A DNA stretch of 64,000 bases from positions 62,001 to 126,000 of the forward strand of contig JADCDI010000031.1 in assembly GCA_020251025.1 (NCBI GenBank), in the 5' to 3' direction. The notes beneath the pieces are model-generated. The model was not told the DNA's origin, did no database searches, and saw only the letters and a list, made by a program, of their open reading frames with translations. This stretch comes from Rhodobacter sp. (GTDB lineage: Bacteria > Pseudomonadota > Alphaproteobacteria > Rhodobacterales > Rhodobacteraceae). Both the position numbers and the translations under genes were made by a program. The number at the start of each line of letters is the position of its first letter. Positions within the stretch are counted from its first letter, which is position 1. Shown in pieces: positions 11,293-55,500 of the stretch.

Positions 11293-11398
11293 CAGGGCGC
11301 GGAAAAGGTGCCGGTCTCAGGGGCTGGCTGACCGGAAAGCGGGAAAGACTTGCGCCTGCGCGCCCGGCAGGTCCTGGCTGGGGCCATCGCCCTAGGCC

Positions 11399-12114
11399 CA
11401 GCGCTGCGCCGGGATCAGGACCGGCCGGGGGTCAACGCCCGCAGCCAGCGCCCGCCGCGCCCATGGTGGGCGCTTCCCGCCCGCCGGGTCGGGCGCTGGC
11501 CTCTGTGTCGCCCGGACCTGCCGGTTTACGGGGCACCGTCCCGCGCGGGCGGGGGAAACGCGATGCGTTTCCTGTTCCCGCCCGTACGGGCGAAGGGACC
11601 CTCACCGTTGCAATGGCAGGGGCCATCGCCCCTGCCACAGCGCTGCGCCGGGATCAGGACGGGCCGGGGGCCAAAGCCCCCGGCCAGCGCCCGCCCCGCC
11701 CTCGGCGGGCGCTTCCCGCCCGCCGGGTCGGGCGCTGGCCTCTGTGTCTCCCGGACCTGCCGATCTACAGGGCACCGTTGCGCGCGGGCGGGGAAACGCG
11801 ATGCGTTTCCTGTTCCCGCCCGAACGGGCGACAGCACCCTCACCGCTTGACTGGCAGGGGCCATCGCCCCTGCCACAGCGCTGCGCCGGGATCAGGACCG
11901 GCCGGGGGCCAAAGCCCCCGGCCAGCGCCCGCCCCGCCCACGGCGGGCGCTTCGCCCCCGCCGGGTCGGGCGCTGGCCTCTGTGTCTCCCGGACCTGCCG
12001 ATCTACAAGGCACCGTCCCGCGCGGGCGGGGGAAACGCGGGTCGCGTTTCCTGTTCCCGCCTGAACTGATGACAGCACCATCACCGCTTCAATGGCAAAG
12101 GCCATCGCCCCTGT
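11399..12114. repeat. Tandem array of three about 239-bp hairpin-rich repeats
   Basis: Landmark CAGCGCTGCGCC recurs at 11399, 11638 and 11876, giving periods of 239 and 238 bases; the third unit decays near 12114, and a partial unit precedes the first. Each unit can fold into several stems. One is GGCCGGGGGC with CAAA loop and GCCCCCGGCC (11662-11685, 11900-11923). A second is GGAAACGC-GAT-GCGTTTCC (11554-11572, 11792-11810), extended by an outer CGGGCGGG/CCCGCCCG stem. A third is GGCAGGGGC-CATC-GCCCCTGCC (11615-11636, 11853-11874). In copy 3 the second stem gains a G on one side and a C on the other, which keeps the pairing. Open frames cross the array because stop codons are rare in such GC-rich DNA; none looks like a protein. 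The array fills most of the 876-bp gap between the FAH-family gene and the MlaC-like gene, and the flanks hold nothing else recognisable. Confidence 0.85.
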
Positions 12115-12168
12115 CCGGGCGCAACCTCGCCCCAAGCCCGCCGGGAGCCGACCGGCCCCCGCGCCCGG

Positions 12169-22629: not shown

Positions 22630-23361
22630 ATGACCAACCCAACCGCAGCCATGCTGGTGATCGGCGACGAGATTCTTTCGGGGCGCACCCGCGACGGCAA
22701 TACCTTTTACCTTGCGGGCGAATTGACCCGCCACGGCATCACGCTGCGCGAAGTGCGGGTTGTGGCCGATGACCATGGGGCGATTGTGGCCGCTGTCAAC
22801 GCCCTGCGCGCCGCTTATGACCATGTCTTCACCTCGGGCGGGATCGGCCCCACGCATGATGACATTACCGCCGATGCCGTCGCAGCCGCCTTCGCTGTGT
22901 CCATCGGCATTCGGGCCGACGCCCGCGCCCTGCTTGAGGCGCATTACCGCCGTGCGGGGCTGGAGTTCAACACCGCACGCCAGCGCATGGCCCGCATTCC
23001 CGAAGGCGCGCGCCTGATCGACAATCCCGTGTCCACCGCGCCCGGCTTCACGCTGGGCAATGTCCATGTCATGGCCGGTGTGCCGAACATCTTTCAGGCC
23101 ATGGTCGCCTCGGTCCTGCCCACACTGACGGGGGGCGCGCCACTGCTGAGCCAAAGCCTGCGCGTGAACCGGGGCGAAGGCGAGATTGCCGCGCCCTTTG
23201 CGGCCCTTGCGGCAGAATTTCCGGACCTGAGCATGGGAAGCTATCCCTTCGTGCAGAACGGGGCGCTTGGCACCAATCTGGTCATCCGCGGCACCGACAG
23301 CGGCAGGCTGGCCCTTGCGATGACGCGCCTTGCCGCCCTGTTTCCCGAAAGCCTGGCATGA
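22630..23361 (+). CDS. CinA-like molybdopterin-binding-domain protein
   Basis: A 243-residue protein with the MoCF_biosynth (MogA/MoaB/CinA N-terminal) domain. It shows LVIGDEILSGRTRDGNTFYL at residues 8-27 and the substrate-site block TSGGIGPTHDDITADAVAAA around residue 75. The C-terminal part resembles the CinA stand-alone forms found in alphaproteobacteria that lack the nicotinamide-nucleotide amidase domain. Possible roles are ADP-ribose pyrophosphatase activity or molybdopterin handling. ATG 22630 follows AGGGGCATCCG. It overlaps the next gene by four bases (ATGA). Confidence 0.88.
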   Translation: MTNPTAAMLVIGDEILSGRTRDGNTFYLAGELTRHGITLREVRVVADDHGAIVAAVNALRAAYDHVFTSGGIGPTHDDITADAVAAAFAVSIGIRADARALLEAHYRRAGLEFNTARQRMARIPEGARLIDNPVSTAPGFTLGNVHVMAGVPNIFQAMVASVLPTLTGGAPLLSQSLRVNRGEGEIAAPFAALAAEFPDLSMGSYPFVQNGALGTNLVIRGTDSGRLALAMTRLAALFPESLA

Positions 23362-24074
23362 TCCTGCTGTCCGCCCTTCTTGCGGCGAACGAGGCGACCT
23401 GGCCCGCAGGGCGCCGCCTTGCGGTCGGCGGTTTCACGCTGCGCGAAGGCGGGGGCGGCGGCAGACGGGTGTCCTGTGCGACCTGCGACGGCGACTGGAC
23501 CGAAGATCATCTGGATCAGGCAGAGGCTGCAATGGCGGGTCTGGGGCAGGCGGCGCAGTTCATGATCCGGCCGGGCGATGGGCTGCTTGAGGCCAGCCTT
23601 GAACGGCGCGGCTACCGGGTTGCCGATCCGACGGTGATCTGCGCGGCCCCGATCGCCGCCCTGGGGCCCGCGCCCGATCCGATGACAGCCTTTCCCCACT
23701 GGCCCCCGCTGGCCATCACCCGGACGCTTTGGGAAAGGGCCGGCATCGGCCCGGCCCGCCTTGCGGTCATGCACCGCGCCCCCCCGCCCCGTGCCGCCCT
23801 GCTGGGACGCAGCGCGGACCGGCCTGCGGGGGCAGCCTTTGTCGCCCTGCATGAGACGACGGCGATGCTGCATGCATTGGTCGTTCCCGAACCGATGCGC
23901 CGCGCCGGGGTTGGCGGGACCATTGTGCGCCGCGCCGCCGTCTGGGCGGGTGAAAACGGGGCGCTTGCCCTTGCCGTGGCCGTGACAGAAGCCAACGGGC
24001 CGGCACGCGCGCTCTATGCTTCCCTCGGCATGAAAGCTGTGGGACAGTACCACTACCGCGTGAAGGGAGCCTGA
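23358..24074 (+). CDS. GNAT-family N-acetyltransferase
   Basis: A 238-residue protein. The acetyl-CoA-binding GNAT motif is in the C-terminal third: MLHALVVPEPMRRAGVGGTI, followed by WAGENGALALAVAVTEAN and ARALYASLGMKAVGQYHY. The N-terminal half is poorly conserved. The acceptor is unknown. The gene is translationally coupled to the CinA-like gene. Its last 109 bases plus two bases downstream (23966-24076) are duplicated at 25135-25245, on the other side of an insertion, and the OmpA-type gene that originally followed now lies 1.2 kb away. Confidence 0.85.
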   Translation: MILLSALLAANEATWPAGRRLAVGGFTLREGGGGGRRVSCATCDGDWTEDHLDQAEAAMAGLGQAAQFMIRPGDGLLEASLERRGYRVADPTVICAAPIAALGPAPDPMTAFPHWPPLAITRTLWERAGIGPARLAVMHRAPPPRAALLGRSADRPAGAAFVALHETTAMLHALVVPEPMRRAGVGGTIVRRAAVWAGENGALALAVAVTEANGPARALYASLGMKAVGQYHYRVKGA

Positions 24075-24076
24075 AG
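23966..24076 (+). repeat. 111-bp direct duplication, left copy (3' end of GNAT gene)
   Basis: This stretch recurs at 25135-25245 with only two substitutions (A/C in GCCGGCACGCGC and A/G in GTACCACTACCG). The left copy is in frame with the acetyltransferase gene. Downstream the sequences diverge at once: TGATCGGCC here, AGGCCAAAA at the right copy. Confidence 0.92.
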
Positions 24077-24104
24077 TGATCGGCCTGCCCGCTATCTTGC
24101 CGCC

Positions 24105-24290
24105 GTGTCAACCCTGATCGTCAACGCACATCAAAACGGTCGTTCCGTCCGGTTGAACACCTTTATGACACTGACTGATGCGAACCCCGCCAAGGTGCTC
24201 TGGCGGTATCGGCTGGGCTACGATGCATGCGGCGCACCCAGTTAGAGACGCGCCGCAGCAACTGTTGCTCGTTCTCACTCCACACGCATG
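24105..24290. repeat. Direct repeat R1 (about 186 bp), left of the secreted-protein gene
   Basis: From GTGTCAACCCTGATC to CACACGCATG this stretch matches 24952-25136 at roughly 80-85 % by eye, with equal length. It covers the last codons (F-M-R-V-E-stop) and the 3' flank of the minus-strand gene at 24275-24856. It contains a short stem AGCAAC/GTTGCT. Confidence 0.8.
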
Positions 24291-24856
24291 AAAACGTCGG
24301 TGGAAAGCTCTACAGGACGCTCAACACACCGGTCTACGCCGCCACCGCCATAGCGCAGGCGCTTGCCCCCCTCGTCGACCAACACGATGTCCTTGTCAAT
24401 GCAGTTGGTGACGGTGAACGGGGGGCCGTTAACACAGTTTGTGATGTCCACGGCTTCGCCGACTGTCATCGGGCATTCCGCCAGGCTCACCGATGCCCAG
24501 AGGTCGGGAGCATCGACAAAGATCGTCGCAAGAGAGTAATCGTTTGTCAGGTTGATCGCCATCGCACCATCTACCCCCTCGGCTGGCCCCTGTTGCTCCC
24601 AGGGACCTCCGGACGAGTATTCGAACAGCTTAATCTGACGTTCCGGATCGGCGTACACCGACACAATAAGCTCCTGCTTGTCTTCGGTGAAGGTCGTGCT
24701 CATGGTCATATAGGTCATGCTACCATCGGCAGCAGGTTGTTCTTTGGCTTCCGTCTGCCATGTCCCCATCACGTCTGCAGGCGTCGTATCGGCCATTGCA
24801 AGTCCGGCAGACAGGGGCAGGGCGCACAGGATAACCCCAAGCAAGCTATGTCTCAT
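24275..24856 (-). CDS. Secreted hypothetical protein on an inserted segment
   Basis: A 193-residue protein that I do not recognise. Residues 1-22 (MRHSLLGVILCALPLSAGLA...) are a Sec signal peptide, so it is periplasmic or exported. The mature part starts near ADTTPADVMGTWQTEAKEQ, is acidic, and has four cysteines (AEC, ITNC, VTNC, VDRC) that could form two disulfides. MGTWQTEA followed by beta-rich sequence recalls small lipocalin-like or DUF2147-like proteins, but no family motif is evident. A strong ribosome-binding site AAAAGGA precedes ATG 24856, and a small palindrome GATGT-ACG-ACATC lies upstream at 24906-24918. Base composition is less GC-rich than the neighbours, which fits horizontal acquisition. 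It is flanked by the direct repeats R1 and R2. Confidence 0.75.
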   Translation of the reverse strand: MRHSLLGVILCALPLSAGLAMADTTPADVMGTWQTEAKEQPAADGSMTYMTMSTTFTEDKQELIVSVYADPERQIKLFEYSSGGPWEQQGPAEGVDGAMAINLTNDYSLATIFVDAPDLWASVSLAECPMTVGEAVDITNCVNGPPFTVTNCIDKDIVLVDEGGKRLRYGGGGVDRCVERPVELSTDVFMRVE

Positions 24857-24951
24857 ATCGTCGTCCTTTTGCGTTTCCTGATTGCGACGCGCACGCTTCG
24901 CGCGGGATGTACGACATCGCACAATCTCTATCAGCCGACTGTCCTGCCTGC

Positions 24952-25136
24952 GTGTCAACCCTGATCATCAACGCACACAAGAAAGTCATTCCGTCCGGGT
25001 GAACACCTTTATCACAATGACTGTTGCGAACACCGCCAAGGTGTTCTGGCGCTAACAGTTGGGCCATCATGCACGCGGCGCACCCAATGAGAGACACGCC
25101 GCAGCAACTGTTGCCCGATCTCACTCGACACGGATG
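24952..25136. repeat. Direct repeat R2 (about 185 bp), right of the secreted-protein gene
   Basis: It matches R1 at 24105-24290 with about 30 scattered differences. On the minus strand its right end still encodes R-V-E-stop, the same last codons as the intact gene. R2 therefore looks like the 3' end and 3' flank of a second, otherwise deleted copy of that gene. It joins the 111-bp duplication at a TG microhomology (25135-25136). Confidence 0.75.
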
Positions 25137-25245
25137 CCCTTGCCGTGGCCGTGACAGAAGCCAACGGGCCGGCCCGCGCGCTCTATGCTTCCCTCGGCAT
25201 GAAAGCTGTGGGACAGTACCGCTACCGCGTGAAGGGAGCCTGAAG
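25135..25245 (+). repeat. 111-bp direct duplication, right copy (GNAT 3' end)
   Basis: A copy of 23966-24076 with two substitutions. It is not joined to any start codon in the acetyltransferase frame and is a fragment. It restores the original junction with the OmpA-type gene, whose start lies 12 bases after the end of this copy. Confidence 0.9.
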
Positions 25246-25257
25246 AGGCCAAAAGCC

Positions 25258-26262
25258 GTGCCCGTTTTTCGAAGACCCAGCCTGCGTTACGGGGTTCTGC
25301 CGGGGGCCGCCTGCCTGCTGCCCTCGATGGCGCTGGCTGTCGCGCTGGAATTTCCCGCCCCGGCCAGCACAACAGCCACCCGCCGCGAACCGCTGGCCAG
25401 CTATGCCTTGCCCGTCGGCCCCTGGCAGGACGGGCAGGTGCCCAGCCGCATCCTTGAAGGCCCGCTGGAACAGACCGGCTGGAGGCTTGCCGCCCCGGGC
25501 ATGACGACCTTGCAGATTCTGGCACCCCTGCGCGGCCAGCTTGACCGGGCCGGGTTCCGTACCCTGTGGGAATGCGAGACGGATGCCTGCGGCGGCTTCG
25601 ACTTTCGCTATTCGATCGATGTGCTGCCAGAGCCTGACATGCATGTCGATCTGGGCGATTTCCGCTTTCTTTCGGCAGAACGCACCGGCGTTGATGGGCC
25701 GGAAGCGGTCAGTCTGCTGGTCAGCCGGTCTGCCGAAGCGGGCTTTGTCCAGGTGGTGTCGATCGGCGCAGCGGTGCCCGCCGCAGGGCCAGTCCCCCCG
25801 GCAGAGCAGGCGGGCATGGCGGCACCCGTCCCGGTCCCGGATCAGGCGGATGCGGTTCTGCGGCCCCCGGGCCTGGTTGCCGCACTGCAAGCCAATGGCT
25901 CTGCCGTTCTGGAAGACCTGGTCTTCGGCTCGGGCTCGGCAACGCTGGGGCCGGGTCCCTTCGCAACGCTGGCCGCGCTGGCCGATTTCCTGAAGCAGGA
26001 TCCGGCGCGCCGCGTGGTGCTGGTGGGCCACACCGATGCCTCTGGCGGGCTGGCGGGAAACACCGCGCTGTCGCGGGCGCGCGCGGCGTCGGTGCGCGAA
26101 CGGCTGATTGCCGAATATGCGGTGCCTGCCACGCAGATCATCGCCGAAGGTGTGGGATACCTTGCCCCCCGGGCCAGCAACCAGACCGAAGAAGGGCGCG
26201 CCAGAAACAGGCGGGTCGAGGTTATCCTGACACCGGCCGGCACGGCGGCACCGATCCCGTAG
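25258..26262 (+). CDS. OmpA-family (peptidoglycan-binding) envelope protein
   Basis: A 334-residue protein. GTG 25258 begins a signal peptide (RRPSLRYGVLPGAACLLPSM ending in ALAVA). The middle is a poorly conserved domain with a likely disulfide pair (LWECETDACGGF). The C-terminal 110 residues are an OmpA-like peptidoglycan-binding domain: VFGSGSATLGP, VVLVGHTDASGG, LSRARAASVRERL and the Arg-rich end ARNRRVEVIL. It anchors the outer membrane to the cell wall. No ATG is available at the expected place. Without the insertion the gene would start 14 bases after the GNAT stop. Confidence 0.88.
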   Translation: MPVFRRPSLRYGVLPGAACLLPSMALAVALEFPAPASTTATRREPLASYALPVGPWQDGQVPSRILEGPLEQTGWRLAAPGMTTLQILAPLRGQLDRAGFRTLWECETDACGGFDFRYSIDVLPEPDMHVDLGDFRFLSAERTGVDGPEAVSLLVSRSAEAGFVQVVSIGAAVPAAGPVPPAEQAGMAAPVPVPDQADAVLRPPGLVAALQANGSAVLEDLVFGSGSATLGPGPFATLAALADFLKQDPARRVVLVGHTDASGGLAGNTALSRARAASVRERLIAEYAVPATQIIAEGVGYLAPRASNQTEEGRARNRRVEVILTPAGTAAPIP

Positions 26263-52597: not shown

Positions 52598-55500
52598 ATG
52601 AAACCGAATTTCGCCCTGAACTTCACCGATGACGCCGTCACGCTTCTGCATCGCACTGCGCGGGGCTGGATGGACGTGGGCAGTGTTGCGTTTGACGACC
52701 CGGAGATGGAGGCGGGGCTGGCCTATCTGCGCGCCTCGGCCCTGGGGCTTGAACCGCGCGGCATGACCACGAAACTGGTGATTCCGAATTCCCAGATCCG
52801 CTACATGACCCTGCCCGCAGCGGGGCCGGACGTGGCAGGCCGCCGCGCCCGGATCCGGCGCGAACTGGAAGGCAAGACACCCTACGGGGTGGACGAGCTG
52901 GTGTTCGACTGGTGGGGCACGGGCCCCGGTTTGCAGGTGGCCGTGGTCGCCCGCGAAACCCTGGCCGAGGCAGAAGCTTTTGCCACGGCACACCGGCTGA
53001 ACCCGCTGTCTTTCGTGGCGATTCCGGGGGCAGGACAATTCGGGGCCGAACCGTGGTTCGGACCGACAGTGCTGTCGGAAAGCCTGCTTGCCCCGGGCGA
53101 GAAGGTGGACCGCGACCAGGATCCGGTCCAGATCGCCGGGCATGTGCCGCGCGCGCAACTGCCCGCCCGACAGGCTGATGGTCCGGTCGCCCCAATGGCC
53201 GATCCGGGTCTGCCGCCTGCCGAACAGACAGTCACGGATGAACCGGCCAACACGATACCGCCGCCGGATGCCGCCGCAGAGGGGCCTGCACAGGCGGAAC
53301 CGCCCGAAGCCACAGAAGAACCGGCCAACATGATGCCGCCGCCGGATGCCGCTGCGGGGGGGCCTGCGCAGGCGGAACTGCCCGAAGCCGCAGAAGAACC
53401 GGCCAACACGATACCGCCGCCGGATGCCGCCGCAGAGGGGCCTGCGCAGGCGGAACTGCCCGAAGCCGCAGAAGAACCGGCCAACGTGATGCCGCCGCCG
53501 GATGCCGCTGCGGGGGGGCCTGCGCAGGCGGAACTGCCCGAAACCCGGGAACGGGAAGAATGTGTTCCGGCAGCCAGCGACGCCCCCCTGACCGATACCG
53601 GGACGCCGCAGGCAGGGGCTTTCCAAAGTCCGGCCCCCGGCAGCGCCCCGGTGCAGACCATCGCTGCCGAGGTTACGGCCGAAAGAATTCCGGATGAGGC
53701 TGAAAGCAGCCCGCCTGTGGAACGCGCCCCGCAGATTACCCCGGCAATACCTTCGGCAAAGACCGATGCCGCCGGCATGGCCATCGATCCCCGGCCTGGC
53801 AGGAAAGCGGTCCCGCTGCCGCGCCCCGGCGCCAGACCCGCTGCGCAAAAGGCACCGGACGCAGCCCGTGTCAGCACCGCCGGACCGGCGCGGCAGGCAT
53901 CCTTTCCGGCGGGCGGCAGCGGCAGCACCATGTCGGCCGCTGCGGGCGGGGATCGGGCGGCGGCACCGGACCGGCCGGGCGAAGCGCGCAAAGGTCCGGC
54001 GCGGACAGGCGCGGTGATGACCGCAGCGGGAATTGCGCCGCCGCGCGAACGCAAGCCGAAGGTCGTACACAACCGGGACTCCGGTTCGGGCCCGGCCACG
54101 GCGCAGGCGCAGGCCGTGGCGAAGCCGTCAGTGGCGCAGTTCGGCAATCGGACGGTGAATCGCGCCAGGCCCCGGTTCCTTGGCCTGATCCTGACGGTGA
54201 TGCTGCTTTTGCTGCTTGTCGCCGTTGCGGCCTGGTCGTCCTATCTCATCGCCACGAACCTTGGACAAGACGATCCCGCCGTTGCAGTTGCAGCGGTCGA
54301 GGCACCGACGTTGCCGGGGCCTGCGCCTGGGGGGCCTGCCGTGGCGGACCTTTCCGCTGCGACCGGTGAAGTGCTGGCTGCGCTGCGGCACCCGGCAGGA
54401 TTTGCCGATGTCCCGGTTGCACAGTCTGACCCCGCACCGGCCGCCGCATCCTTGCCCGACATCAACCTTGCTGCGGCGGATGCCGCTGCGGCACCAAGGG
54501 TTGAGGCGGCAACCCTGGTGCAACCGGCCATGACAGCGTTCGCCTTTCCCAGCCCCGGCGTGGAACCGCAGGACGAGATGCTTCTGGCAAGCATCGACCC
54601 GGTCATCCCCAAAAGCGATGCCGTGGTCCTTGCCCTGCCCGATACCGCGACCGACCCCGCCCCCCTGACGCAACCCGCGCCGCCGCCCTTCGGCACAGAG
54701 TCCCCGTCTGAAGTGAACCGCCAGACCTTGCCGCCAACGGCAGGCAGCGTGACGCCGGGGGGTGTCCTGATCATGGCCGGTCCGCCGCCGCGCCCCGGGG
54801 TGACGGTGCAGCCCGTGACAGGTCCCGGGGGTGTGGTGCCATCGCCTGCGTCCGCCGGCGACGCCGGTGCTGTGCCGGTCGTCTATGCCGACCCCGCCCT
54901 GCAAGAGGCAAGGCCCCGCCTGCGCCCGGCAGATATGGTGCCGCCTGAAATCGCGCTGCCGGATGGTGCAGCAGAGGTGACGGATGCTGCGGCAGGCCGT
55001 GTGAGCAGCCTCAGGCCGCGCGCCCGCCCGCCCGGGCTTCTTGCCGCAGAGGCTGCGCCGCAGGCCGGCACCGCTGCCGCTCAGGCGGCCGGGGCATCGC
55101 TTGTTGCCACGGCAGGGGAAGGTGCCGCCAGTCCCCTGGCAATTGCCGTTTCCCGCAAGCCGGCCGCGCGTCCGGCGCAGGCCAATGCCGCCATCGAAGC
55201 GGCCGTTTCCGTGGCTGCCGCCGATGCCTCTCTTGTGCCTGACACGGGAACGCTTGCGCCTGTCGTGCCCGCGCCCGATCCGCAGCCTGCGGTGACCGCA
55301 GATGACCCCGAAGCGGTTGAGATCGACGAACCCGAGCTTGCGTCAGCAGCCCCTTCGGTGCCGACGCGCGCATCCGTCGCCAAGCAGGCGACCTTCAGGA
55401 ATTCGATCAACCTGTCGAGGATCAATCTGATCGGTGTCTATGGCAGCTCGTCCAACCGCTATGCCATGGTCCGGCAGGCCAATGGCCGGTTCATCAGGGT

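Follow-up and report, generated by a model that had tools for sequence, protein, structure and literature searches.

Results and Discussion

Structure of the locus

How did a gene for a putative secreted protein come to lie between two host genes, flanked by two copies of the end of one of them and with no recognisable mobile element nearby? This question is raised by a locus in the window, the whole stretch of 64,000 nucleotides of Rhodobacter sp. DNA analysed here. The target gene (23358–24074, plus strand) codes for a GNAT acetyltransferase of 238 amino acids (Pfam PF00583, E = 5e-8), and further downstream on the same strand lies an OmpA-type gene (25258–26262, Pfam PF00691, E = 1.2e-15) with a GTG start at 25258. 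Both genes are intact. Between them lie 1,058 bp of inserted DNA (24077–25134, no strand assigned) with a GC content, computed along the locus, of about 56–60% vs 66–70%, in line with the less GC-rich segment of about 1.06 kb described in the initial annotation. The 3' end of the GNAT gene constitutes the left copy of a 111 bp target duplication (23966–24076), and the right copy follows in direct orientation at 25135–25245, both on the plus strand. Direct-repeat comparison gave 98% identity with two substitutions between them, exactly as first read from the sequence.

The length of the duplication is best given as 108–111 bp, because the right junction could sit up to 3 bp further in: the related genome G004 has ATGACCTTGCC at the positions where the window has ATGCCCTTGCC. 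The left junction is blunt and without homology, and the right one shares the 2 bp TG only. Therefore, the initially proposed joining at a TG microhomology applies to the right junction but not to the left one.

Neither the list of open reading frames nor a Pfam domain search yielded a recombinase, integrase or transposase gene beside the insert, as had been noticed before, and a repeat search detected no terminal inverted repeats at its ends. A scan for promoter and terminator consensus sequences returned no matches. Thus, a transposase gene and inverted ends as in an insertion sequence or transposon are both missing, and the duplication of 108–111 bp stands against the 2–14 bp usual for such elements, which agrees with the earlier remark that it is longer than usual target-site duplications.

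We also scanned sampled stretches, together 597 kb of the genome, for direct repeats of at least 95% identity and at least 40 bp, located 0.2–6 kb apart. The 111 bp pair was the only one found. It is therefore far beyond chance, and the sampled sequence gives no indication that such duplications arise repeatedly. Recent cases could be missed, since short-read assemblies break at exact repeats. Repeats of other kinds occur as well. At 11313–12122 the window has a GC-rich repeat of about 239 bp in at least three tandem copies; this family, with matches in 31 of the 41 sampled stretches of the genome and often at contig ends, is an abundant interspersed repeat. A tandem array of a 78 bp repeat, with copies 90–95% identical, is located at 53230–53541.

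Empty and filled sites in related genomes

The gene order cinA-GNAT-OmpA is kept in genomes of the same genus and in many other genera. In G005, the GNAT gene is directly joined to the OmpA gene with a single copy of the 111 bp sequence, and the flanks are 95% identical to the window. The same empty arrangement, again with one copy, is found at C22 of G001, where the flanks show 86–89% identity. Thus, the insert is absent from both, and comparison with these sites shows that the right copy re-forms the native junction to the OmpA gene. The proposed search for an empty site was hence successful, and the possibility raised at the outset that all relatives might share the filled arrangement does not apply. 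By contrast, G004 carries two copies and matches the window in insert, site and junctions, while having its own substitutions (flanks 91–92% identical to the window; insert 95% over the 1,005 bp stretch common to all three copies of it known so far). G004 (JADCEL010000063.1) and G001 (JADCEN010000016.1) are both MAGs of Rhodobacter sp. Since a second MAG shares insert and junctions but has substitutions of its own, an assembly artefact is ruled out. The insertion between the GNAT and OmpA genes is real.

Its distribution is patchy. In the upstream flank, G005 is 95% identical to the window and 95% to G004, and the window and G004 are 92% identical to each other. G005 either lost the insert or never had it; the latter is slightly favoured because its single copy of the 111 bp sequence is left-like at the informative sites. 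Recombination between the two 111 bp copies would remove the insert without a scar.

A 191 amino acid AhpD/carboxymuconolactone-like gene lies between GNAT and OmpA in G009 (L013, 1983–2558), and gaps of similar size were observed in L010, L015, L016, L017 and L019.

The captured gene and its flanking repeats

The insert contains a single gene on the minus strand (24275–24856), coding for 193 amino acids with a signal peptide recognised by eye. Homologues were detected in 13 of 395 genomes of the family, and the near ones are single copies in varied contexts. No Pfam or NCBIfam model matches this protein family above its cut-off. A weak similarity to the APCDDC domain (PF14921) was found for three out of nine members, with a best E of 0.008; one of these matches scores 13.6 bits vs the curated cut-off of 27 bits. 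A profile of the family matches human APCDD1 structures weakly, too (8e0r, E = 0.033). This bacterial family of secreted proteins is hence weakly similar to an animal WNT inhibitor, APCDD1, over about 100 residues at the profile level, yet the captured protein stays below the curated PF14921 cut-off. Its structure model, with a mean pLDDT of 41, was too poor for a fold search and for a comparison with the lipid-binding beta-barrel of APCDD1. Synonymous and nonsynonymous codon changes amount to 9 and 7 between the window and the copy at a second locus of G001 (C8, see below), 10 and 3 between that copy and G004, and 7 and 7 between the window and G004. Judged from these counts and the intact frame, purifying selection on the captured gene appears at most moderate.

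The gene is enclosed by two diverged direct repeats, both assigned to the minus strand. R1 (24087–24290) comprises the spacer downstream of the gene plus its last codons; R2 (24934–25136) comprises the spacer upstream of it. They align in two blocks (24087–24130 with 24934–24977, and 24132–24290 with 24978–25136), each at 84% identity, and their spacing is 846–847 bp, which bears out the 847 bases first reported. Within the genus, R1 was found only where it adjoins the R1-gene-R2 unit. The minus-strand end of R2 indeed reads R-V-E-stop, as the initial annotation had it, and close homologues of the captured gene end in F-x-x-V-E. Because this C-terminus is conserved, R2 resembles the terminus of a further gene copy, now lost, together with the intergenic spacer that follows it. 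That one unit was captured from a tandem array of paralogues, as originally put forward, is made plausible by these C-terminal codons; however, no intact array was found, no tandem arrays of homologues were seen in the genera bearing them, and the relatives have the gene in single copy.

The repeats could recall the attC sites of an integron cassette, with their GTTRRRY and RYYYAAC motifs. This was rejected: R1 and R2 fold no clearly better than shuffled sequences (z from −0.2 to −1.7), and inspection by eye revealed no GTTRRRY at the unit boundary. Moreover, integron cassettes make no long duplication, whereas the insertion at the GNAT site does.

A second location of the unit

The search for copies elsewhere, suggested at the outset, brought up one. 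At C8 of G001, 1,005 bp of the insert are present at 96% identity in an unrelated, accessory and IS-rich locus, next to a pyruvate-kinase-like gene. The 111 bp GNAT sequence is absent there; therefore the duplication arose at the GNAT site and did not travel with the unit. Between the window and this locus, the insert shows 96% identity vs 86–89% for the GNAT-site flanks of the same two genomes, so that horizontal movement of the unit is probable. No further copies were found in the genome of the window or in 195 related genomes, and no plasmid or viral carrier matched.

On one side, the unit at C8 ends 4 bp beyond the left boundary known from the GNAT site, at the start of an IS256-type end (L022, 2436–2441); on the other, it is cut inside R2 by an IS3/IS5-like sequence. 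With insertion sequences on both sides, the exact ends of the unit cannot be taken from this locus. The near-match of the left boundary may be accidental or may point to a defined end.

Should the end be a defined one, the unit might be a small, hitherto undescribed non-autonomous mobile element with the ends TGATCGGCC (left) and CGACACGGATG (right), whose movement would depend on an enzyme acting in trans and leaving duplications of about 100 bp. Its presence at two unrelated loci, with the same left end to within 4 bp, speaks for this view. However, the boundary at C8 is set by the IS256-type end and the opposite one is cut by an IS, so that neither demonstrates a defined end; neither terminal inverted repeats nor unusual folding were seen, and the 195 genomes and the 597 kb scanned hold no other instance. 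We regard such an element as unlikely. Still less credit can be given to a non-autonomous mobile gene cassette which entered the GNAT site and C8 independently, with a helper that leaves about 110 bp of the target duplicated; duplications of this size are far longer than those known from bacterial transposition. The unit is not a demonstrated mobile element.

A duplicated gene 3' end with the gene itself left intact is the hallmark of islands inserted by tyrosine integrases. The GNAT locus has this layout and could be the remnant of an island or integrative element that integrated site-specifically at the GNAT 3' end, the 111 bp being the att core and the integrase and most of the cargo having been deleted. 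Unlike such islands, the locus has no integrase or remnant of one near the insert, and the unit at C8 carries no 111 bp sequence that would correspond to an att site. Furthermore, none of the relatives compared showed an island at the GNAT 3' end, and G004 shares both junctions without having a larger version. The island remnant is therefore improbable, and both it and a defined element making long duplications are less likely than a one-off insertion.

Divergence of the two target copies

It had been proposed to date the duplication from its two substitutions. This is unsafe. Both 111 bp copies of the window share a derived change of the stop codon TGA to GGA which is absent from G004, G005 and G001, and for this reason gene conversion has probably homogenised the copies in the lineage of the window. 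The copies differ at 2 of 111 sites in the window vs 8 of 110 in G004 (Fisher p = 0.06). If inherited, the insertion goes back at least roughly to the divergence of the genome of the window and G004; a transfer of the insert between these two may have taken place instead.

Possible mechanisms of insertion

On balance, we lean towards a single illegitimate insertion in the common ancestry of the genome of the window and G004, brought about by a backward template switch or an equivalent joining. Synthesis or strand joining would have proceeded past the GNAT stop codon and then changed over to another template, namely small secreted-protein genes in a tandem array of the kind still partly visible at C8 of G001. 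From there about 1.06 kb would have been copied, comprising the spacer R1, one whole gene, the spacer R2 and the final codons of the adjoining gene. The return to the original locus would have occurred at a TG about 111 bp upstream of the exit point, and synthesis resumed from there would have duplicated the GNAT end. Equivalently, a donor fragment could have joined one sister chromatid to a point further back on the other. We infer the array as source and the switching or bridging step from an ectopic, source-like locus (C8), junctions with micro- or no homology and a duplicated target. With a single insertion event known, recurrence offers no clue to the mechanism. Further points weigh against a one-off capture: no intact source array was found, the C8 locus being interrupted by insertion sequences at either end; random breakage would rarely place the left boundary at C8 within 4 bp; and for a simple switch of the polymerase between templates, 1 kb of inserted DNA and a backward step of 111 bp are long.

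The same layout would also result, by ordinary RecA recombination, from a single-crossover (Campbell) integration of a small circle carrying the unit together with the 111 bp piece of GNAT. This requires a prior illegitimate joining of GNAT and unit, however, and recombination between R1 and R2 in an array would release a circle with a single R copy, whereas both are present; nor was a plasmid match found. We consider this route doubtful.

A staggered double-strand break with a 111 nt overhang, filled in on both sides and joined to a captured fragment, as in patch-mediated repair, would yield long duplications with non-homologous junctions such as those observed here. Bacteria without Ku join ends poorly, though, and Ku end joining had to be discarded, as the gene is absent from G000, G001, G004 and G005. 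Fill-in of a staggered break through Ku-LigD joining is hence not available today, which leaves this origin with a small probability. The same four genomes encode a ComEC-type competence domain, so that uptake of DNA is possible.

The single capture favoured here has partial parallels. Judged by its title in the reference list of PMC5730883, the study of Vaughn and Bennetzen (2014) concerns patch-mediated repair in rice. Such eukaryotic patch-mediated or templated insertions resemble the GNAT site in their non-homologous insert, long direct target duplication, little or no junction homology and lack of a transposase, but they are described in plants with end joining, unlike the bacteria studied here, which have no Ku. 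Homology-facilitated illegitimate recombination, known in E. coli conjugation (PMC3240628) and from de Vries and Wackernagel (2002), as cited in PMC3784515, also joins foreign DNA illegitimately at one side; it is described as being anchored by homology on the opposite side, whereas the junctions of the GNAT insert have at most 2 bp each. In Streptococcus pneumoniae, interchromatid integration of donor DNA leads to tandem duplications, a donor fragment bridging two chromatids (PMC3784515). These duplications are driven by repeats and span 100–900 kb, in contrast to the 111 bp at the GNAT site, where no repeat is involved.

Conclusion

The locus provides a clean case in which an empty site, a filled site and a source-like locus are all found in close relatives, and in which a gene was gained without a visible mobile element. 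As far as we know, gene gain of this kind combined with a long target duplication has rarely been documented in bacteria. With this case, it becomes possible to test what template switching contributes to gene gain. Furthermore, the 111 bp repeats offer a simple recombination route to precise loss of the insert, which could explain its patchiness among sister species.
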